Shown here: positions 12,246 to 23,401 of the stretch, piece after piece
How the letters are laid out: each line of letters begins with the position of its first letter
Numbering within the stretch: position 1 is the stretch's first letter
From: an uncultured Flavobacteriales bacterium
GTDB lineage: Bacteria > Bacteroidota > Bacteroidia > Flavobacteriales_G > Salibacteraceae
Assembly (NCBI GenBank): GCA_913057205.1
Contig: CAJXNO010000009.1
Coordinates: forward strand, 1 to 64,000
Reading direction: 5' to 3'
Length of the DNA: 64,000 nucleotides
The notes under the pieces: generated by a model
What the model was told of the DNA's origin: nothing
The model's input: the letters and a program-made list of their open reading frames with translations, nothing else
Databases searched by the model: none
Made by a program: the position numbers and the translations under genes

Positions 12246-13493
12246 ATGAATCGACTACTGCTCTTTTTGATCCTTAGCGGCGCGCTGCTGCTTTTTGATT
12301 TCTATGCATATCAAGGTCTGAAGGTCGCCATTAATGGCTGGCCTACCTGGGGCCAGCGACTCGCAAAAGGTGCCTTTTGGGGGTTGACGGTAATCACCCT
12401 GCTCTCATTCTTGTTGTATGAGCCCCTTTCGGCATCCGAACGCGGAAGGAAATTCTTGATGATCATCGCTACGGTAGGTGTTGCAAACATTTTTGGTAAG
12501 TTCCTTTTCGCGCTTTGGCTGCTCGTTGATGACGTCATCCGTTTCGCCAAGTGGGGTTGGAACAAACTCAACCCCAACACCCTTGAAAAGGATGGTGGCG
12601 TGAGCAGAAGCGAGTTCTTGGCCAGTCTGGGAGCCCTCTCAGCAACGTTACCTGTTCTATCCATGTCTTGGGGGGTAGTCAGCGGTGCGCACGATTACAC
12701 CGTTAAACGACGCACACTGAAACTTAAGGGACTCCCAACTTCGTTTGAAGGCTACACCATCCTGCAGATCTCCGACATCCATACCGGGTCTTTTTGGAAC
12801 CGAAAAGCGGTTGAAAAAGGAATAGACATGATCAATGCTCAAGGAGCTGATACCGTTTTCTTCACCGGAGACATTGTGAATAACAGGGCTGATGAACTGG
12901 AAGACTGGAAAGATGTTTTTGGTCGAATCTCCGCTAAAGACGGTGTGTTTAGTGTTCTCGGAAATCATGACTACGGAGACTACGTGCCATGGAGTACCGA
13001 AGAAGAAAAGCGTCAAAACCTGCAGCGTTTGATTGACATCCAACGCCATGAGATGGGGTGGGACCTGCTGATCAATGAAAACCGATTCATCCAACGAGGA
13101 GATGATCGAATAGCCGTCATCGGTATTGAGAATTGGGGGGCTCGCGGAAGATTCCCAAAATACGGCGACCTGAAAAAGGGCTATTCCGGTACGGAGGATG
13201 CGCGTGTTAAGCTGTTACTCTCTCACGACCCTAGTCATTGGAAAGCACAAGTTATTCCAGAGTTTCCAAGCATCGATGTGACCTTTTCCGGACACACCCA
13301 CGGTATGCAGTTCGGAATAGAAGTGGGCAGCTTAAAGTGGAGTCCCGTGAAATACTTCTATCCGGAGTGGGCCGACCTCTATAAAGAAGGCGACCAACAA
13401 CTCTATGTAAACCGCGGCTTTGGTTATATCGGCTACCCTGGGCGTTTTGGGATCTTGCCTGAAATCACAGTTTTTACCTTAGAAAAGGCTTAA
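12246..13493 (+). CDS. Membrane-anchored metallophosphoesterase (YaeI-like)
   Basis: The 415-residue protein has about three N-terminal membrane segments (residues 3-20, about 35-55, about 65-90) and a calcineurin-like phosphoesterase domain from about 155. The metal-binding motifs are present in order: DIHTGSFWNRKA, FFTGDIVNNR, GNHDYGDY, LLLSHDP and FSGHTHGMQFG. YaeI-type members hydrolyse UDP-2,3-diacylglucosamine-like or other phosphodiesters; the true substrate here is unknown. The ATG at 12246 was chosen because the open frame upstream runs through tRNA-Cys and its terminator. The N-terminal sequence MNRLLLFLILSGALLLF fits a membrane start. Confidence 0.9.
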   Translation: MNRLLLFLILSGALLLFDFYAYQGLKVAINGWPTWGQRLAKGAFWGLTVITLLSFLLYEPLSASERGRKFLMIIATVGVANIFGKFLFALWLLVDDVIRFAKWGWNKLNPNTLEKDGGVSRSEFLASLGALSATLPVLSMSWGVVSGAHDYTVKRRTLKLKGLPTSFEGYTILQISDIHTGSFWNRKAVEKGIDMINAQGADTVFFTGDIVNNRADELEDWKDVFGRISAKDGVFSVLGNHDYGDYVPWSTEEEKRQNLQRLIDIQRHEMGWDLLINENRFIQRGDDRIAVIGIENWGARGRFPKYGDLKKGYSGTEDARVKLLLSHDPSHWKAQVIPEFPSIDVTFSGHTHGMQFGIEVGSLKWSPVKYFYPEWADLYKEGDQQLYVNRGFGYIGYPGRFGILPEITVFTLEKA

Positions 13494-13516
13494 CTTATTG
13501 CGAATTAGTCAATAAC

Positions 13517-13548
13517 TTGACCCGTAGGGGTGTTCTCCCGTAACTTTG
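13517..13548 (+). promoter_or_regulatory. Complete Bacteroidota promoter before the barrel gene
   Basis: TTG at 13517-13519 and TAACTTTG at 13541-13548 are 21 nt apart, within the usual TTG / TAnnTTTG spacing. The ATG of the next gene is 13 nt downstream of the element, giving a very short leader. Confidence 0.6.
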
Positions 13549-13561
13549 TATCCTACCTGAA

Positions 13562-14746
13562 ATGTTGAGGATCCATTCATCATACCAGCTTTCACTCGCT
13601 TTAGCGCTCATGCTAGGGCTTCTAGCGAATCAAAGCCTAGGGCAACAATTGCGTGATCCAAAGGTGAATGACAAGCGTCCAGAAGTTCCATTGTACAAGA
13701 ACCCAAAGATCAAAGAGAGCGACGTAGACTGGAAAGCGACGCGGTTAGAGTATGTGGTCGGAGGAGGTGCTTCAAACTTTTTAGGTGACCTCGGAGGAGA
13801 AGATCAGCCTGGCCAGCCCTTCGTCTTTGATCTAGAGCCTACCATGACCCGATATGCTGTTTCGGGAGGCGTTCGCTATTTCTTACGCGAATATCAAGCG
13901 ATCCGAGGCTATACGACCTATGCTCGCGTGAGGGGCGATGACGCGTTGACCAATTACCCCAACCGTCGGTACCGCAACCTTAACTTCAAATCGCCCATCA
14001 TTGAGGTCGCAGGTATTTATGAGCTGCATATCCTGAAGCCCGACTATATCCACTACATGGGTGCAAATACTACGCGGGTGTTTGATGGAAATCGTTTTGG
14101 AGCTTACATAAGTGGGGGTGTTGGCGCCTTCTTCTTCAATCCAAAAGGTCGATTAGAGTCGCAGTATTTTGCGCTTCAGCCTTTGCGCACGGAAGGACAA
14201 GGCTTTCCAGACGGACCTGACCCTTACCGTCGCCTTTCCGTTTCCTTACCTCTTGGTGGAGGCGTATACATGTTGTTAAACAAAAACTTCACCGTTGGAT
14301 TAGACTTCGGATACCGTTGGACCATAACCGATTACATAGACGATGCCAGCACCTTCTTTTACGACAATCAAGCAATCGAAGCACGGGACGGCAAGCTAGC
14401 AGCGTATTTTGCCAATCCGAGTGTTGCTTTAAGCGACGTACCGGATGACTTTTGGTATACAGAAAACCAACCTCGGGGAGGGCAGAATAACAACGACACC
14501 TACATGTTTCTTCAGCTCACGCTAAGCAAGTCGTTCACCCCATCCATCACCAACCGAAAGTTCAAGCAAAGCAAGAAAATGAAAGCTCCTTCTTACAACA
14601 AGAAGAAGCTCAAACTCTTCAAGCGAGAGCGCAAAACGCGCACGTACAACAACAAGCGCATCAAGAAGTCGAAGCGGAAGTTCAAGGCACCAAAGCTTGA
14701 TTTCGGAAAGAAACGCAAAAAGAAGAAAGGGTCTATCTCTTTCTAG
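13562..14746 (+). CDS. Outer-membrane beta-barrel protein (DUF6089-like) with Lys/Arg-rich tail
   Basis: The 394-residue protein has a signal peptide (cleavage near residue 27, after NQSLG) and a barrel-like body. The opening VVGGGASNFLGDLGGEDQPG and the SGGVRYFLREYQAIRG strand resemble the DUF6089 family of Bacteroidota outer-membrane proteins. Amphipathic strands and Gly-rich turns continue to about residue 325 (MFLQLTLSKSF). The remaining 70 residues form a strikingly basic tail (FKQSKKMKAPSYNKKKLKL, then KRIKKSKRKFK, GKKRKKKKG). No T9SS domain is present. Such a tail after the last barrel strand is unusual and could contact peptidoglycan, LPS or another envelope polyanion; this is a guess. 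The gene has its own promoter. Confidence 0.75.
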   Translation: MLRIHSSYQLSLALALMLGLLANQSLGQQLRDPKVNDKRPEVPLYKNPKIKESDVDWKATRLEYVVGGGASNFLGDLGGEDQPGQPFVFDLEPTMTRYAVSGGVRYFLREYQAIRGYTTYARVRGDDALTNYPNRRYRNLNFKSPIIEVAGIYELHILKPDYIHYMGANTTRVFDGNRFGAYISGGVGAFFFNPKGRLESQYFALQPLRTEGQGFPDGPDPYRRLSVSLPLGGGVYMLLNKNFTVGLDFGYRWTITDYIDDASTFFYDNQAIEARDGKLAAYFANPSVALSDVPDDFWYTENQPRGGQNNNDTYMFLQLTLSKSFTPSITNRKFKQSKKMKAPSYNKKKLKLFKRERKTRTYNNKRIKKSKRKFKAPKLDFGKKRKKKKGSISF

Positions 14747-14762
14747 GCGAGAGGCGCCGACA

Positions 14763-16058
14763 CTAAATCTTGTAGTTCAGCCCCACCTGAAGATCAACCA
14801 ATTGGTTTGGTTCGGCGTGCTGATAGAATTCACTGCTGCGATCAAAGACCGTAGTAATTGGTAGCATAGCACGTGCATCGATGGTCACGTGTTGGGAGAT
14901 GGTATGCTCATAGCCGGCCATCAAACCTAACCTCCAGCGGTTCAAGCCTTCCATTGTACTTCCATCGTTGCTGCCAAAATCAGCCTTGATGTAATCCGTG
15001 CTGTTGTAAACCATGTACGACTCATTCTCGACACCAATGAGGTAATCCACAAACGTTCCGATGGATGCATTTGAATGAGTGGTCAAGTTTACATGCAGTG
15101 CTACAGGCATGTGTACATAATCAAGGCGTTGCGCAACGAAGCTTTCCCTTACGTTCATAAAGTTTCGACGAAGCTCCAATTCTTCTTCCGTTGCACCACC
15201 GAAATTGTTCAGCAATACATTAGCAAGCGGCTCCAGGTCTACGTCCTGAGATCGCTCAAGTCCATTTCCGGTTCTCCTCAATAGACCGATCTCAGCTGAA
15301 ATGAATGTCTTTGGGCTGAAGGCATAGGTGTAACCAACCGATGCAACTCCATTCAACCTCCACTTTGCCGGGTCGCTCATGGAATTCGACTCACCATTTC
15401 CGGTGCGTATACCCGCACGAACATAAGCGCCATGCTGCCGGAAGATTTTAGCGTCAGGAAGGTCAGGCAGGTCTCTGGCAGCAATGTCTCGTGCACCAGT
15501 ACCGAAGCCTAACGCCGGCATCTTCCCAAGCCTATCCAGCACCCTTCGCGCAAACGCCAGCGGCTCCTTTGATTTAGCAGTTGGATTCCGATCAAATACC
15601 GGTTCTTCTGACGTTTCTGCCAATGCCAGTCCAATGGACGATGAAGGCTCGTCGTCGCTGATATACGGTAGCGCTGGATCAAGCGTTCCAACACGATTGT
15701 TCCTTTGGTTGATCGATTCAGCGCTCACCCAATCCGATGCCGTTTCACTTGACTCGAACCAAGAAGTAGCTGCTTGTACCAATTGAATCCGCTCCGCTGT
15801 TGGGTTTGGTTGTTCAAGAGCCGACCGGTCTTGATTCACCAATCCCGCCACACCTATGATTGCCGCTACTGAGGCCGCCATCCCCCAAGAAGACAGACTC
15901 GTGCCAACGGTGCTCGCTGTGGCTCCTGCGCTGCCAACCATGGCCGCTTCCAGCTCCGATTCGAATCGCACCCACTGTGCGTTCGGATCTACCCGGTGGT
16001 CCTTCACGCCATCAAAACGCGCTTTGAACAGCTCATCTATTTCGTGATGATCAGCCAT
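14763..16058 (-). CDS. Probable dual-membrane-spanning anti-sigma factor with C-terminal beta-barrel
   Basis: The 431-residue protein has a soluble N-terminus (residues 1-55, MADHHEIDELFKARFDG, then DPNAQWVRFESEL), one hydrophobic segment (about 56-74, SSWGMAASVAAIIGVAGLV), a Ser/Thr/Pro-rich linker to about 205 and a barrel-like C-terminal domain from about 210 to the end (SVGYTYAFSPKTFISAEIGLL, RLGLMAGYEHTI, final LVDLQVGLNYKI). Its ATG overlaps the end of the ECF sigma gene by 8 nt. A single polypeptide with a cytoplasmic head, an inner-membrane helix and an outer-membrane barrel matches what was described in Bacteroides as Dma (dual membrane-spanning anti-sigma) proteins. No signal peptide is present at the true N-terminus, which supports this topology. 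Anti-sigma action is inferred from overlap with the sigma gene. Confidence 0.75.
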   Translation of the reverse strand: MADHHEIDELFKARFDGVKDHRVDPNAQWVRFESELEAAMVGSAGATASTVGTSLSSWGMAASVAAIIGVAGLVNQDRSALEQPNPTAERIQLVQAATSWFESSETASDWVSAESINQRNNRVGTLDPALPYISDDEPSSSIGLALAETSEEPVFDRNPTAKSKEPLAFARRVLDRLGKMPALGFGTGARDIAARDLPDLPDAKIFRQHGAYVRAGIRTGNGESNSMSDPAKWRLNGVASVGYTYAFSPKTFISAEIGLLRRTGNGLERSQDVDLEPLANVLLNNFGGATEEELELRRNFMNVRESFVAQRLDYVHMPVALHVNLTTHSNASIGTFVDYLIGVENESYMVYNSTDYIKADFGSNDGSTMEGLNRWRLGLMAGYEHTISQHVTIDARAMLPITTVFDRSSEFYQHAEPNQLVDLQVGLNYKI

Positions 16059-16602
16059 AGAGTAAAGCTAGTTCTGGGTAAATGGCTTTTAGTTTGGTTT
16101 GGATCTGCTTACGTGCCGAAGACAAATGCCATTTTGAGGTGCCTACAGACATATTCAACTCCTCGGCGATTTCTTTGTGACTGTATCCATCGATCGCAAA
16201 CATGTTGAAGACCACCTTGCTGATTGGTGAAATGGTGTCAATGACCTCCATTAACTCTTCAACCGACATGTTGTTTAAACCATCATTGAAGACCTGACTG
16301 GAAGGCATGATCGCATCAAAAGAAAACAGGTCCTTGTATCGCTTGCTCGACCTCAGGTGATCCAACGCCGTGTTGATGATGATGCGCTTACACCAGCCTT
16401 CAAACGAGTTTTCAAAATGGTATTGATCGATCTTCTTGAAGATCTTGATGTACCCTTGGTTGAGCACATCAAGCGCCTCCTCTTCGTCCTTAATGTAACG
16501 ACGCACGATAGCGAGCATAACAGGATAGTAGGACTCGTAGACCTTTCTCTGAGCAACGCGATTGTTGTTCAGGCATCCTTGAATAATCTCGTTCGTGATC
16601 AT
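16051..16602 (-). CDS. RNA polymerase ECF sigma factor
   Basis: The 183-residue protein has sigma-70 region 2 (YIKDEEEALDVLNQGYIKIF, then FENSFEGWCKRIIINTALDHLR, residues about 33-80) and region 4 (KEIAEELNMSVGTSKWHLSS helix-turn-helix, about 143-162). It lacks region 3, which defines the ECF class. It is transcribed before and overlaps the barrel-linked anti-sigma gene by 8 nt, so the two are made together. Autoregulation is likely but no operator was identified. It follows the duplicated-domain secreted protein by 47 nt on the same strand and may share its transcript. Confidence 0.92.
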   Translation of the reverse strand: MITNEIIQGCLNNNRVAQRKVYESYYPVMLAIVRRYIKDEEEALDVLNQGYIKIFKKIDQYHFENSFEGWCKRIIINTALDHLRSSKRYKDLFSFDAIMPSSQVFNDGLNNMSVEELMEVIDTISPISKVVFNMFAIDGYSHKEIAEELNMSVGTSKWHLSSARKQIQTKLKAIYPELALLYG

Positions 16603-16649
16603 GTGCTTTCTGAACTTAAGACGAGCGCACCCAACAAAAGGTTGTTACC

Positions 16650-17252
16650 TTACTTGAACTTGATCACGTTGGCCTTTCGGATACCACTGCCCGCAACCAC
16701 AACGATCGCATCCAAATCTTTGTAACGCTCCTTTGAAATACGGATGAGTTCCGCCTTGAGTTCTTCGATATCTTTCGACCTAAAGGTGACTGGGGTCTCT
16801 ACTTTTCCGAGCAACTGATACTCTGCCGTTGGACTGCTTTGCATGAAGAGCATGATGCCACTTGTAGGAACCGCCTTCGCCTCTTTATGCTTGGGGTTCA
16901 CCTCTTCATCATCACCTCTACCTCTTTTACGCTTTGCGTCAGGATCTGGGTAGTATTGAATGATGTCTGCTTTGCATAGCCCTGTTCCTGGACGGAAAAT
17001 CAACGCATCAAACTCCTCGTGCTCCTTTCGGGTTTGCTTGATCATATGCTCGATCAGTGGCTCCTCCTCATCAGGGCTAAAGGTGGCGCAAGATACCGTG
17101 CCTTTATGGCGGTAAGGGTTTGCGGGCATGCTCTCAACGAAGAGCACCACACCGTCTTTATCGTTCGCGGTAGCCAGGTCGTTCTGAGCGTAAACGCCCA
17201 TAGAAACGAGCGCCATAGAGAGGGTTGCAATAAGCTTGTGATGTGATTTCAT
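16650..17252 (-). CDS. Secreted protein with an internal duplication, function unknown
   Basis: A 200-residue protein with a signal peptide (MKSHHKLIATLSMALVSMGV, ending at VYA). It contains two related units of about 70 residues, near 34-100 and 132-200. Both share the order L-F-x-x-S-x-P, then Y-x-x-x-G-x-V, then a helix ending in DAL/I, then G-T/S-G-L/I-x-K-A-D/N-I/V-I. The linker between them is highly charged (DAKRKRGRGDDEEVNPKHKE). The unit pattern faintly resembles small alpha/beta folds such as YbjQ, but this is only an impression. It lies between the large subtilisin and the sigma factor, all on the minus strand. It might be a target or sensor of the sigma system; that is inference from position. 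Confidence 0.7.
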   Translation of the reverse strand: MKSHHKLIATLSMALVSMGVYAQNDLATANDKDGVVLFVESMPANPYRHKGTVSCATFSPDEEEPLIEHMIKQTRKEHEEFDALIFRPGTGLCKADIIQYYPDPDAKRKRGRGDDEEVNPKHKEAKAVPTSGIMLFMQSSPTAEYQLLGKVETPVTFRSKDIEELKAELIRISKERYKDLDAIVVVAGSGIRKANVIKFK

Positions 17253-17327
17253 GAAAGAAGAATTTCTTCAAATAACGTGAATCTTCTGAATTGTAACCGA
17301 TTCGTTAAGAATTCAACAACATTCTGC

Positions 17328-20300
17328 CTATTGAACAACGAGGCGCTTTTGCACCGACTCATCTCCATGCAGTTCCAACATGTAGACGCCCTTGCTCAAC
17401 GAAGACAAGTCAATCGTTTCCACATTTCCATTGATTCCTCCTTGCAACACCTGCTCTCCTTTCACGCTGTGGATTCGCCATGAACCAAAGCTGGATGTCT
17501 CGGTGAGCTGAATCACAACGCGATCTACCGCTGGGTTAGGATATACCTGAATGCCCGCATCGTTTATTTCATCCACACTCAACGCGTTGATCTCAACAGA
17601 GTAAGTGTCTTCCCCATAAGCGTTCGACACCGTTTGCGTCACCGTATAGCTGGTCATCGATGCATATGTGTGGCTGGCCGGAACACTGTTCAAAACGGTT
17701 CCATCACCCAGATCAAAGTCCATGTCATCTGCATACAAGCTTTGATCGGTGAAGTTTACCGATAAGCTATTCGGGTTTACATAAGCGTAGTCAAAATCCG
17801 CTACAGGTGGGTGATAAACCATTACTCCATCAATGGCAAGATCGCTGTTAAACGACGCTCCCGTAATTCCACGGAATCGAATGTTAACCACCTTTCCGGC
17901 AAATGCATCAAGGGCTACCTCTTGCTCCTGCCAGCTGTTTCCCTGGTTGCCTGACAAAGGCGTCATGACGTCTAGCGTCCATGCGTCTCCATCGAATACA
18001 TCAACATGAAGTTCGCCCATATCGGAACCATACATGTGGAAATAGAAACGGAGAACAGCGCCAGGGCTTTCGCTCAGATCAATGCACGGTGATAGCAGCT
18101 CTGCTGTTTGGAAGTTACACTCTCCACTCGCCTCTAAATACAAGTACCGTCCAAAGCCGTTGTTCGTATAATCCCCCGTTGGCCCCGAGAGGTTTGTTGG
18201 CGTTGCTCCAACGTTGAGGCGCCAGTCTATGTCGTCACCTACTCCGTTGCTTTCGTTCACCCAGTCATTCAAAATGGTACACTCTGTTTCTCCGCAGTTG
18301 TCTGTATTCGGACAGATCGGCATGAGGTCGAAGTCCTCCTCGAATACCGGTGCCTGTAGCTCACCAACCACAACTTGGTATGTCATGCTAGCTGTATCAT
18401 TCCAGTGGTTTTGATCATTGCTTAAGTCAACGATCACGAAGTGGCTGTTCACGCCCTGCCCGTCCAACAAGATGGAATCTGCAAAGTAGAAGGTGTCTAT
18501 TGCTCCAGGCGCAATGTTGGCGGTGAAGCTTTCTGTAGTCAGCAAACCGGAAGCGGTAAAATGAAGCTCCGCATCAAATGAAAGCAGGGGAGAGGTTCCG
18601 TTATTCTTGATCACAAAGCCTGGTTGACGCTCAGCACCGTGACAATCAAACAAGCTCGAGGCGTCTGGGATCATCGTTACAACTTCAGCATCAAAATCAA
18701 GTACACAATTGAATACTCCTGGAGCCTTATTGATGGCCAAGGCTCGCTCTCCACGCGCTCCATCCGTTCCAATGCTGGATACGCTGTACCATACATTCGG
18801 ATCGTTCGGGGCTACTCCATAGTCTACAAATGTGTTGTTGCTGGCAACACCAATGGAATCCATGTACTTCTGTCCAAGCTTATAAACCACGTAAGAACCT
18901 GCAGTGGATACCGTGTTCCACCTCAAGCCGATAGAGTCTGGGCAAGCCCACTCTACTTCGAGGCCTAAAGGAACGTTAATCACGGAAAAAGCATTGGAGG
19001 TGACCTGGGTTGAGCCCTGTGTCAATCGTATGTGAACATCCGCAGAGCTCAGCGAAAATGGCACAGTCCAGTATCGATGACCATCTTCCGCAGGAACACC
19101 TGTTGCGATGGTTTGCCAACTGCTTCCTCCGTTGGTAGAGAATTCTACATCGATGGTTTGACTCAAATCGCCCGCATCCCAACGGATCAACTCTGTAACC
19201 CCCGGAATCAAGGGTTCTCCGCCTACTGGATAGGTGAGGTGGAGTGCCTTCCCTTCAAACATGTGAGTCAAGAAATAAGGCTGTGGACCTTGAGGAACTT
19301 GATGTCCTTCAATGATCACTTGGTAGCTTCCTGCAGCTGGGTTGATGAATTCTACCTGCTCCACGTTATTCAGATGGTCCTCACCATTCGTAGCAGGGAG
19401 TCCAAGGGTTGCTGCATTGGGTGTGTCATCCAGTACATAGGGTAAAATTGTATCTCCATTTGGATTAATCACCTTCATATCAAGGTCATTCACCAAGGCC
19501 GTAGCGGCTCCGACGTTCGCTTCCGGATCTGTCCAATAAACCATAAATCGAGCGCGCGTGGTATTGGCTGGAACATTCAACACTTGTGTGTTCTGTGCTG
19601 CTTGGGCCAAGCTTCCTTCCGTAAAACTTCCTGACTCAATCACTTCATAAGCCCGGCGAGCGTTGATCTGCCCCCAGCCATAGATAAAGTCTGGACCGGG
19701 AGCACCCATATCATCTGCCGTATTCATAGCGATGGCCTTCATCAGACCACCGTCTGGTAGTTCACTGTAGTTGTCCTCATACGCCTGATACAACACCGCT
19801 AACGTGCCTGAAACGCCGGGACACGCCATGCTCGTACCCGTGTAGGTATCGTATGCGTTTCCGCCGATGGTACTGGTCACATTAGTTCCTTTGGCCGAAA
19901 GGTCTGGCTTAATCCGCCCATCATGTGCTGGACCCCTACTGCTGCTGTTCGCGATTTGTCCGAGTTCGTTGACATTAGCAACCGCGATAACATTCTTACC
20001 CATTTTATGTCCTCCGGTGATATTGCCCCAAAAACTTCCGGCGCCATAACCGCAATTGCTCGTTCCTGAGTTCCCTGCAGAGAAGACGTGTAAAAGGCTT
20101 GGATAATCCACACTCTGAGCATCCATTGTGCGCGTTCTAGAGGTGTAACCTGCATTACAACCATCGCTATAGGACGTTGACGTGATCACCACAGCGTAGT
20201 TGTTGTAATGGCTTGGTATGGAGTCATATGCTTGGTACTCTGGCCACGCTTTGTAAACGTGAAGGTCAGCCCCCGGCGCCTGGCCAAGGTTACGAGCATT

Positions 20301-21149
20301 GATGTTTCCGGCTCCAGCTATGGTGCCACCAACGTGATCGCCATGATCGCCATCGCTGATATCCCACCAATGGGTGGTGCGGCCATGATGATCGATGTGT
20401 GGTCCAATTGCACCATCATCTTGCAGCGCCACTCGGATGCCTGAGCCATCGTACTGAAGGCTGTTGTTATTTCTTGTTCCCAAGTAGTTGGTTCGGTGCA
20501 AGGTTTGGGAGGTGTAGTTCTCTGGCTCACCTTCTGCGAACCTCCAGTCGATGAATGCTACCGCTCCATGTGCTGCAAGTGCAGCAACCTCGCTGTTGGC
20601 TACTTCAACCGTAATCGTTTGATACGTGGGATGTGTTTCTACCACATTAAACCCTGCTGCCGCTAAGCTGCGTGCTGCGCGGTTTAACTCGATGTTGCTG
20701 TAGGGAGATACGTTGAGCAACAACCCCTTCTTCGAGCGAGCGTGATCTGGTGTGGTTTCAACGCCCACAACAGATTTATGATATTCCGTATGGGGCGATT
20801 GCGCGTTTAGTCGAAAAGCATTCAACGGACCCAGATCTGCCCCTTCCTTGACTCCAATCAAGTAGAAGCTCTTTGGGTAAAAACCAAGGAAATGAATTCC
20901 TGAAGCCCCAATAGAAGCTTGCTGGCCAATGGTTGGAAACTGCTCCAGAGCAACCAAGCCGTAACGCACACCCTCGAAAGAGGTCCACGCTGCAAGCTCG
21001 TCTTGGCTCAACGATCGATCGCCATCTGGCGCGACCTTGAATTCACCTGACCGCAGGTTGAGTTGTAGTTCTTGGTTCTGATTCTGGGCGGTGGAGGTGA
21101 ATGTAATCAGCGCAAAAATGCTTGCTAGCAGTGCATAACGGTTCGTCAT
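17328..21149 (-). CDS. Secreted subtilisin-like (S8) protease with T9SS type A sorting domain
   Basis: This 1273-residue exoprotein has a signal peptide (MTNRYALLASIFALITFTSTAQ) and an S8 catalytic domain. The triad is seen as Asp in VALQDDGAIG (about 244-245), His in HGDHVGGTIAG (about 272) and Ser in GTSMACPGVSG (about 440). A P-domain-like/beta-sandwich region (about 530-640), Ig/FN3-like parts, a MAM/jelly-roll-like region around 970-1100 and a PKD-like segment (VADFDYAYVNPNSLSVNFTD) follow. The C-terminus is a type A sorting domain beginning IQVYPNPAVDRVVI and ending VQKRLVVQ. It is therefore likely exported by the T9SS, to which the PorZ in this window belongs. The ATG at 21149 was chosen because it directly precedes the signal peptide. 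Substrate is unknown. Confidence 0.92.
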   Translation of the reverse strand: MTNRYALLASIFALITFTSTAQNQNQELQLNLRSGEFKVAPDGDRSLSQDELAAWTSFEGVRYGLVALEQFPTIGQQASIGASGIHFLGFYPKSFYLIGVKEGADLGPLNAFRLNAQSPHTEYHKSVVGVETTPDHARSKKGLLLNVSPYSNIELNRAARSLAAAGFNVVETHPTYQTITVEVANSEVAALAAHGAVAFIDWRFAEGEPENYTSQTLHRTNYLGTRNNNSLQYDGSGIRVALQDDGAIGPHIDHHGRTTHWWDISDGDHGDHVGGTIAGAGNINARNLGQAPGADLHVYKAWPEYQAYDSIPSHYNNYAVVITSTSYSDGCNAGYTSRTRTMDAQSVDYPSLLHVFSAGNSGTSNCGYGAGSFWGNITGGHKMGKNVIAVANVNELGQIANSSSRGPAHDGRIKPDLSAKGTNVTSTIGGNAYDTYTGTSMACPGVSGTLAVLYQAYEDNYSELPDGGLMKAIAMNTADDMGAPGPDFIYGWGQINARRAYEVIESGSFTEGSLAQAAQNTQVLNVPANTTRARFMVYWTDPEANVGAATALVNDLDMKVINPNGDTILPYVLDDTPNAATLGLPATNGEDHLNNVEQVEFINPAAGSYQVIIEGHQVPQGPQPYFLTHMFEGKALHLTYPVGGEPLIPGVTELIRWDAGDLSQTIDVEFSTNGGSSWQTIATGVPAEDGHRYWTVPFSLSSADVHIRLTQGSTQVTSNAFSVINVPLGLEVEWACPDSIGLRWNTVSTAGSYVVYKLGQKYMDSIGVASNNTFVDYGVAPNDPNVWYSVSSIGTDGARGERALAINKAPGVFNCVLDFDAEVVTMIPDASSLFDCHGAERQPGFVIKNNGTSPLLSFDAELHFTASGLLTTESFTANIAPGAIDTFYFADSILLDGQGVNSHFVIVDLSNDQNHWNDTASMTYQVVVGELQAPVFEEDFDLMPICPNTDNCGETECTILNDWVNESNGVGDDIDWRLNVGATPTNLSGPTGDYTNNGFGRYLYLEASGECNFQTAELLSPCIDLSESPGAVLRFYFHMYGSDMGELHVDVFDGDAWTLDVMTPLSGNQGNSWQEQEVALDAFAGKVVNIRFRGITGASFNSDLAIDGVMVYHPPVADFDYAYVNPNSLSVNFTDQSLYADDMDFDLGDGTVLNSVPASHTYASMTSYTVTQTVSNAYGEDTYSVEINALSVDEINDAGIQVYPNPAVDRVVIQLTETSSFGSWRIHSVKGEQVLQGGINGNVETIDLSSLSKGVYMLELHGDESVQKRLVVQ

Positions 21150-21265
21150 AATTAGCTTCTTTTCACAGTTAACGGCCTTAAAGGTACAAGCCGGATCAGT
21201 ACATTTGATAACAATCGGTCGCATACCTTGTTGGTATATTGTTCTCTTAAACACGATTCAGGCAT

Positions 21266-23401
21266 ATGAAATTCAGAGGTCTTCAGCTCCTACTATCAAC
21301 CAGCGCAGCCATTTTACTGTGTTCTTATATTCTTTATGAAACAGGTGGTGGGACCCGAGCCATGGCAGATGATCCCGACGCTCGAAAAGACCGTGTGTTA
21401 TTGGAGGTGTTGATGAAAAGCCTTGAGAACAGTCATTTTCAACCTAAGGCATTGAATGATGCATTTTCTGAAGACGTTTACGACCTCTACTTAGAGCGCT
21501 TGGATTTCAATAAGCGATTCTTGCTCAAAGATGATGTTAAGGACTTGGAGCGTTATAAGCTTCAGCTGGATGATCAAATCAGGACGGGATCCTATGAGTT
21601 CTTCGACCTCTCCTTTGATCTCTACACGAAACGACTGAAGGAAGCGCGAGCTTACTATCCTGAAATCTTAGAAAAAGCATTTGACTTTTCCGTTGATGAA
21701 GACATTGAGTTAGACGAAGAGAAACGAGACTTCGCGAAGGACAAGAAAGACCTGCAGGAGTTCTGGCGGAAAAGCTTGAAGTACCAAGCCCTCACACGCA
21801 TCCACGAAATGGAACGCAAGCAGGAGTCGGCATCAGAAGAGAACGACACCTTGACCATACGCACCTTTGAAGAGATGGAGGCAAAGGCCAGGGAAAACCT
21901 CAAGAAGAGCAACGATCGCTTTTTCGAGCGGTTCGATAAATGGACACGAGACGATATGAAGGAAGTCTACCTCAATGCGATCATGAATGTATATGGCCCG
22001 CACACAGGTTACTATCCTCCAAAAGACAAAGAGAATTTCGATATCTCTATGAGTGGTCAACTTGAAGGAATCGGGGCTCAACTGCAAGAAAAAGATGGCT
22101 ACATCAAAGTGGTAAGTATTGTTCCTGGAAGTCCTTCTTACCTGCAAGGCGACCTGGAGGAAGGCGACATCATCCTTAAGGTTGCGCAGGAAGGCGAGCC
22201 TCCAGTAGACATCACAGACACGCGCATCGATGAAGCTGTAAAGCTGATCCGAGGTAAAAAAGGTACAACGGTTCTCCTGACCGTTAAAAAGATCAACGGA
22301 TTGATCACCGAGATCGCGATTGTACGCGACATCGTGGTGCTTGAGGAAACCTATGCCAAGTCTGCCATCATCCAAGACGGCGATCAGAAAGTGGGATACA
22401 TCAAACTGCCGAAGTTCTACACGGATTTCAATCGACTTGGTGGCCGCACAGCATCAGAAGACGTTCGAACAGAGCTGCTCAAGTTAAAAGAAGAGGGTGT
22501 AGATGGCATATTACTCGATCTGCGGGGGAACGGCGGGGGTTCCTTGAAAGACGCCATCGACATGACCGGGCATTTCATCGAGAGCGGACCTGTGGTTCAA
22601 GTGAAGGGTCGCTACAATAAAGCCGAGGTGATGCGCGACCGGAAGCCGGAAGTGGTTTACGATGGTCCGTTGGTTGTCATGCTAAACCATTTCAGCGCAT
22701 CCGCATCTGAGATCTTAGCGGCGGCCATTCAAGACTATGATCGCGGTATCATCTTGGGCGCAAGTTCAACCTTTGGTAAGGGAACCGTGCAGCGCTTCTT
22801 TGAGCTTGATCGCTATTTGAACAACAGCTTCAGTGAGTACAAGCCACTCGGCGCCATCAAGATCACGACCCAGAAGTTCTATCGCATCAACGGTGATGCC
22901 ACCCAACTCAAGGGGGTGGAGGCCGATATTCAAGTTCCGAACCGCTACAACTATTTGGAGATGGGTGAGAAGGAACAAGATTTTGTGATGGAGTGGGACG
23001 AGATAGAGCCAGCAAGCTATGACGTTTGGAAGCCTAGCTACAACGAATTAGATGTGGTAAAACGCAGCCTTGAACGCATTGAGTCGAACGAAGTCATGCA
23101 ACGCATTGATGAAAACGCAAAGCAACTCAAAGAGCAGTCAGGGCAAACGCTGATCCCATTAAACTATGGCGCATTCAGCGCCCGTCAAGACGCCTTAGAT
23201 GCACAGGAGGATGCGTTCTCCGAGTGGATAAAAGAGCACCGAATCGAGCTGGATGTTCGCAACCTGCAAGTAGACCTTGAAAGTATTGAGTCTGACTCTG
23301 TGAAAACAGACATCAACGATAAGTGGCTCAAGAAGCTTAAGAAGGATGAAACCTTAGACGAGGCTGTGAAAGTGATCAAAGACATGCGGAACGCCGCTTA
23401 A
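21266..23401 (+). CDS. prc: Carboxy-terminal processing (tail-specific) protease, S41 family
   Basis: The 711-residue protein has an N-terminal signal/anchor (about 1-25), a long helical N-terminal region, a PDZ domain (about 245-335, IGAQLQEKDGYIKVVSIVPGS) and the S41 protease core. GILLDLRGNGGGS, the catalytic Ser region FSASASEILAAAI and the catalytic Lys in TFGKGTVQRF are all present. The C-terminal DUF3340-like extension fits Prc-type rather than short CtpA-type enzymes. Such enzymes act in the periplasm on C-terminal tails and peptidoglycan-hydrolase regulators. It diverges from the subtilisin gene and converges on hflX with 3 nt between the stop codons. Confidence 0.93.
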   Translation: MKFRGLQLLLSTSAAILLCSYILYETGGGTRAMADDPDARKDRVLLEVLMKSLENSHFQPKALNDAFSEDVYDLYLERLDFNKRFLLKDDVKDLERYKLQLDDQIRTGSYEFFDLSFDLYTKRLKEARAYYPEILEKAFDFSVDEDIELDEEKRDFAKDKKDLQEFWRKSLKYQALTRIHEMERKQESASEENDTLTIRTFEEMEAKARENLKKSNDRFFERFDKWTRDDMKEVYLNAIMNVYGPHTGYYPPKDKENFDISMSGQLEGIGAQLQEKDGYIKVVSIVPGSPSYLQGDLEEGDIILKVAQEGEPPVDITDTRIDEAVKLIRGKKGTTVLLTVKKINGLITEIAIVRDIVVLEETYAKSAIIQDGDQKVGYIKLPKFYTDFNRLGGRTASEDVRTELLKLKEEGVDGILLDLRGNGGGSLKDAIDMTGHFIESGPVVQVKGRYNKAEVMRDRKPEVVYDGPLVVMLNHFSASASEILAAAIQDYDRGIILGASSTFGKGTVQRFFELDRYLNNSFSEYKPLGAIKITTQKFYRINGDATQLKGVEADIQVPNRYNYLEMGEKEQDFVMEWDEIEPASYDVWKPSYNELDVVKRSLERIESNEVMQRIDENAKQLKEQSGQTLIPLNYGAFSARQDALDAQEDAFSEWIKEHRIELDVRNLQVDLESIESDSVKTDINDKWLKKLKKDETLDEAVKVIKDMRNAA

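Follow-up and report, generated by a model that had tools for sequence, protein, structure and literature searches.

The closest described systems are the Dma1/Das1 and Dma2/Das2 pairs of Bacteroides thetaiotaomicron (PMC13088901) and the EcfO/Reo pair of Bacteroides fragilis and Phocaeicola vulgatus (PMC13114119). In the Dma pairs, the anti-sigma factor consists of a head, one membrane helix, a long disordered tether and a C-terminal barrel, while in EcfO/Reo the anti-sigma chain is described as running from the cytoplasm to the surface. FecR/FecA likewise conveys an outer-membrane signal to an ECF sigma factor by way of an inner-membrane anti-sigma factor.

The window analysed here is a stretch of 64,000 nucleotides (contig CAJXNO010000009.1, assembly GCA_913057205.1) from an uncultured Flavobacteriales bacterium of the family Salibacteraceae. 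The features of the locus are the following.

14763..16058, minus strand: Dma-type anti-sigma factor of 431 aa (open reading frame, OMP_b-brl_2, conservation, AF2)
15927..16058, minus strand: its predicted cytoplasmic head, residues 1-44, with helices 5-16 and 25-44 and with D8, F11 and W29 (AF2, conservation, coupling to the sigma factor)
15834..15899, minus strand: its predicted inner-membrane helix, residues 54-75 (hydropathy, AF2, position kept in relatives)
15447..15833, minus strand: its predicted periplasmic tether, residues 76-204 (modelled by AF2 at low confidence; 77% of it small, polar or charged)
14766..15446, minus strand: its predicted 8-stranded OmpA-like outer-membrane barrel, residues 205-431 (OMP_b-brl_2, AF2, structural alignment)
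16051..16602, minus strand: ECF sigma factor of 183 aa (open reading frame, sigma-70 region 2 and region 4 domains)
16650..17252, minus strand: Sec-exported protein of 200 aa, first gene of the operon (open reading frame, repeat comparison, conservation of the locus)
17267..17283, minus strand: promoter-like element GATTC-N6-TTTGAA, conserved, 14 nt before the first gene
13562-14746, plus strand: PorG-like (T9SS) protein whose long tail is rich in lysine and arginine; its gene faces the anti-sigma gene in convergent orientation, 16 nt apart
17328-21254, minus strand: S8 protease of 1308 aa with MAM, PKD and T9SS type-A sorting domain, on the same strand as the operon

The original prediction described an ECF sigma gene that overlaps the gene of the 431-residue protein by 8 nt, and this is indeed what the open reading frame coordinates give, the two genes sharing nucleotides 16051-16058. 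The sigma factor (16602..16051) was found by domain search to contain both region 2 and region 4. Against TIGR02985, a Bacteroidetes sigma family, it scores 85.7 bits, which lies under the curated cut-off of 126.4.

The 431-residue protein had been proposed to combine a head, a single inner-membrane helix, a linker of about 130 residues and a C-terminal barrel, and the AF2 model, built with 27 relatives, together with the Pfam match to OMP_b-brl_2 (residues 212-405, above the gathering score) reproduces all of these parts. In the model, helices are present at residues 5-16, 25-44 and 54-75, the confidence is low from the membrane helix to residue ~204, corresponding to a tether of ~130 residues, and barrel strands follow at 209-430 with pLDDT values mostly of 94-98, such that structure prediction yields the barrel at high confidence. 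The chain ends in LVDLQVGLNYKI. The membrane segment is modestly hydrophobic, with a Kyte-Doolittle maximum of 1.67 at residues 56-74. Its assignment as a membrane helix, also part of the original prediction, agrees both with the AF2 helix at 54-75 and with the relatives, 104 of 107 of which have a membrane helix near residue 48 (median protein length 441). Residues 207-431 align structurally with OmpA, OprF, PagL, NspA and a designed barrel at Z values of 15-17, and the matches to the four natural proteins indicate that the C-terminal domain is an 8-stranded outer-membrane barrel. A search by sequence for solved structures with the anti-sigma profile gave no match, and Pfam returned no FecR domain in the protein.

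The anti-sigma protein is encoded in each of the 12 congeneric genomes examined, at 25-43% identity for those aligned, and OMP_b-brl_2 is matched by every one of the 23 aligned relatives, which shows that the 431-aa frame is not a chance one. The protein is also encoded in another genus of the same family (G015). In the aligned relatives the tether varies freely, and the invariant residues of the head include D8, F11, R14, F15 and W29; D8, F11 and W29 remain invariant in a wider alignment. In genome G009 (L006/L029, G009:C5:17554-18853) the anti-sigma frame is broken near residues 38-49, by either a sequencing error or a true mutation, with the sigma gene and the first gene of the operon intact.

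Beyond the family, we searched 395 Bacteroidia genomes with a profile built from 28 diverse relatives; 358 gave a match at an E value of 1e-6, a count that includes some barrel-only or partial matches. Of 109 loci fetched with this Dma profile from Bacteroidia genomes, an ECF sigma gene immediately precedes the anti-sigma gene in 107, and in 51 loci the two genes overlap by 4 nt. Tether length, measured in 101 barrel-type relatives, has a median of 169 and never falls below 94 residues, and a minimum of ~94 residues is what one expects for a chain that must span the periplasm. We have also searched from the other side, with the alignment of the sigma factor only. This retrieved relatives, whereas a single-sequence protein scan of the named genomes found none. 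Among 80 named loci, from Saprospiraceae, Cytophagales, Pedobacter, Bacteroidales and Flavobacteriales records, a long enough gene stands directly downstream in 76, and the products of 36 of these 76 match OMP_b-brl_2; homologues are present in the Bacteroidales records L043, L058, L091 and L110. The Dma-type design is not confined to Bacteroides but widespread in the class Bacteroidia, and the suggestion that its occurrence outside Bacteroides is something unusual does not hold. With this, the Dma design is extended from gut Bacteroides to most of the class.

Several related loci deserve mention. The same genome holds one more Dma-type pair of sigma factor and barrel anti-sigma factor (L127:2357-4291, G000:C6:66871-68775; anti-sigma protein of 454 aa), and a further ECF sigma gene that overlaps the gene for a membrane-anchored protein of 460 aa (L130:2068-4015, G000:C7), which has no Pfam or NCBIfam match and a barrel-like end, YFNIGFLF. 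In Chitinophagaceae- and Cyclobacteriaceae-like records, short anchored proteins of 200-290 aa that lack a barrel are encoded directly behind related sigma genes (L036, L049, L054, L067-L069, L072, L078, L079, L081, L082, L087, L090, L095). Behind another related sigma gene (L038:5283-7124), the protein has a C-terminal PorP/SprF barrel (E 1.5e-21) and an ambiguous membrane helix.

The proposed interaction between the head and the sigma factor has a part that can be computed, and this part came out in its favour, in that head residues covary with sigma residues. When 176 sigma/anti-sigma pairs were analysed by mean-field direct coupling, the barrel columns serving as internal control, the top couplings between the two proteins (S for sigma, H for head) are S117-H11 (z 12.5), S164-H8 (z 12.2) and S55-H36 (z 7.4), followed by S26-H28 (z 6.3) and S7-H10 (z 5.8). 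For comparison, z reaches 6.7 for the best barrel pair, and the maxima of eight random re-pairings lie at 6.6-8.2. The couplings involve sigma region 4 for head residues 8 and 11, one turn apart on helix 1, and region 2 for residues 28 and 36 on helix 2. In the window proteins the top predicted contacts are between sigma L117 and head F11 and between sigma R164 and head D8. At the latter two positions R164 occurs with D8 and K164 with E8, in 129 of 162 barrel-type pairs and in 47 of 49 pairs of a second class described below. Changes of S117 and H11 on a shared branch number 10 versus 0.8 expected in one analysis, and in another 6 versus 0.9 for all pairs and 4 versus 0.6 for the barrel types alone, the count varying with the tree and the sequence set. 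With plain mutual information the two highest pairs are both head pairs, and the top 50 contain 12 pairs with head columns against a re-paired mean of 11. There is no general excess for the head, and the argument for contact therefore rests on the specific pairs. Taken as such, the covariation is evidence, short of proof, that the head contacts the sigma factor. D8-R164 and F11-L117 constitute, to our knowledge, the first residue-level prediction of how such a head grips its sigma factor.

The first gene of the operon encodes the 200-aa protein, which the original prediction had noted as a secreted protein with a duplicated domain. The duplication is real, with two repeats at about residues 28-105 and 128-200 that match each other with an hhalign E value of 8e-17. 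The view of it as a mere neighbour has to be given up: the gene leads the sigma/anti-sigma operon, a place that is conserved, with the sigma gene directly after it where loci were read, and it occurs in 13/13 genomes of the genus as well as in G015, from a sister genus. In this protein Q23, which follows a predicted AxA cleavage site, is invariant, and inspection found neither a lipobox nor a type IX tail. Elsewhere in the family there is no full-length copy, just weak, partial matches. The window operon lacks a conserved lipoprotein-like gene of ~370-380 aa that comes after the sigma/anti-sigma pair in most of the family's other genera (L016-L022, L025, L026). Comparison of the repeats with PDB and Pfam gave no family at significance, a kinship with RcsF suggested by their look was dismissed at an hhalign probability of 0.3%, and the single-sequence AF2 model is poor (pLDDT 41). 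The exported protein is probably a partner or an output of the switch. A Dma version that is tied, in one genus, to a single conserved exported partner makes it testable, within an operon of few genes, what Dma barrels sense.

The element GATTC-N6-TTTGAA also precedes the same gene in five relatives, with about one exact copy per genome. As a regulon motif it was rejected: matches with one mismatch are close to the level of reversed-pattern controls, and hence no wider regulon was found. The -7 box of the main sigma factor is TAnnTTTG (PMC12632263), which the element resembles, and the element is not assignable to the sigma factor of the window. The operon's first gene starts 75 nt downstream of the S8 protease gene, and the convergent order of the PorG-like and anti-sigma genes is kept in the relatives read. 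No Rfam element was found within 13000-22000.

We consider it likely, with a probability of about 0.8, that the window pair works as a Dma-type switch of sigma and anti-sigma factor, in which the sigma factor is sequestered by one chain that reaches both membranes and is released when the barrel end is disturbed. The anatomy, the conservation, the operon and the head-sigma covariation are all covered directly by the analysis above. We infer that in the cell both ends of the chain are inserted in their membranes. The head would keep the ECF sigma factor bound at the inner membrane, helix 1 lying on region 4 and helix 2 on region 2, and the same chain would cross the inner membrane once, continue as a flexible periplasmic tether and end as the 8-stranded barrel in the outer membrane. 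The signal may be a disturbance of the outer membrane or of barrel insertion, with a ligand of the barrel as a further candidate; the barrel would then no longer hold or shield the tether. The chain would then be pulled or cut, regulated proteolysis being the likelier route, and the freed sigma factor would transcribe at least its own operon, the first product of which, the periplasmic two-domain protein, may serve as an effector or as a feedback partner of the barrel. The experiments on Dma1/Das1 and Dma2/Das2 (PMC13088901) and on EcfO/Reo (PMC13114119) support this mode of working. The anatomy and the phenotypes of the dma1, dma2 and reo deletions together make sequestration, with release on perturbation of the barrel end, the most likely reading.

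Another option considered is that the chain is cut soon after synthesis into a separate outer-membrane barrel and a plain inner-membrane anti-sigma factor, such that no molecule spans the envelope. The poor conservation of the tether and its low AF2 confidence are as a protease-accessible region would show, and short relatives without a barrel do occur behind related sigma genes. However, the loci examined encode head and barrel as one chain, and if the product were cut there would be no need for a tether of at least ~94 residues, which makes early cleavage unlikely. It could also be imagined that the anti-sigma protein is no inhibitor but a positive co-factor that recruits the sigma factor to the membrane, since architecture and covariation alone fit inhibition and activation alike. 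Partners of ECF sigma factors that are encoded directly downstream are, however, generally inhibitors. Moreover, deletion of dma1, dma2 or reo raises the output of the partner sigma factor in Bacteroidales (PMC13088901, PMC13114119), and we regard an activating role as very improbable.

The role of the 200-aa periplasmic protein could also go beyond mere output, if it carried the signal itself by binding the barrel or the tether and thereby setting the release of the sigma factor. It would then inhibit at rest and be titrated by stress, as CpxP and Spy are for Cpx. The gene stands first in the operon, and the full-length protein is found only where the orthologous pair occurs (13/13 in the genus, and G015). 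On the other hand, other genera of the family have the same kind of pair without this protein, with a lipoprotein gene downstream instead, which means that the basic mechanism can do without it. A signal-carrying function is a possibility that we hold to be rather doubtful.

Sorting the proteins encoded downstream of related sigma genes revealed a second class, which has the same head and helix and a tether, followed by a PKD and/or a T9SS type-B sorting domain (CHU_C, TIGR04131) and no barrel. In 40 full-length examples from Bacteroidia genomes, the ECF sigma gene is directly upstream in all 40 and the membrane helix lies at residues 39-65. Two members are present in the same genome as the window, one with TIGR04131 above the cut-off (L128:2712-3707, G000:C1:62711-63703) and one just under it (L129:2859-4124, G000:C10:43858-45120); other examples are L039, L041, L066, L080, L086, L299-L337 and L339. 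In most genomes of the genus, a frame for a PKD and T9SS type-B cargo of ~1000 aa stands directly before the second-class sigma gene (L129:137-2236; e.g. G011:C34:172424-173197). Type-B tails are known to bind PorP-like barrels at the surface (PMC9143113), and in P. gingivalis the tailed protein PorA signals to the PorXY-SigP pathway (PMC7712824). In the open-licence literature we found no description of an anti-sigma factor with a type IX sorting tail, and the T9SS-tailed class is apparently undescribed. One can speculate, at what we would call even odds, that a sigma-binding head, an inner-membrane helix and a long tether form a general Bacteroidota cassette with a swappable far end, either an OmpA-like barrel or a T9SS type-B domain, and that in the T9SS class the sigma factor is informed, through a chain held at both membranes, when the tail is secreted or docks at the surface. 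If true, this would be a new way of coupling secretion to transcription.

Judged against the known systems, the likeness to the Dma idea of Bacteroides put forward in the original prediction is supported, as the architecture fits the published definition on each testable feature. The match comprises head, helix, tether, barrel and adjacent ECF sigma gene; the published definition also names the group ECF21 for the sigma factor. Dma1/Das1 and Dma2/Das2 share all of these with the window pair, and also the occurrence in Bacteroidota, the host of the window belonging to the class Bacteroidia. The operons differ, in that DUF4943 and DUF4858 genes stand behind dma2, while the operon of the window is led by the tandem-domain exported protein. 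EcfO/Reo, also encoded side by side, is a proposed outer-membrane stress sensor (PMC13114119), similar to the role proposed here, but its regulon contains nigD lipoproteins, none of which was seen beside the window operon. In FecR/FecA the barrel is a separate TonB-dependent receptor, whereas in the window barrel and anti-sigma factor are one chain, with neither a FecR domain nor an adjacent TonB receptor gene, the neighbours being the PorG-like protein, the 200-aa protein and the S8 protease. The window pair is thus an already known Dma architecture, and its operon partner is new.
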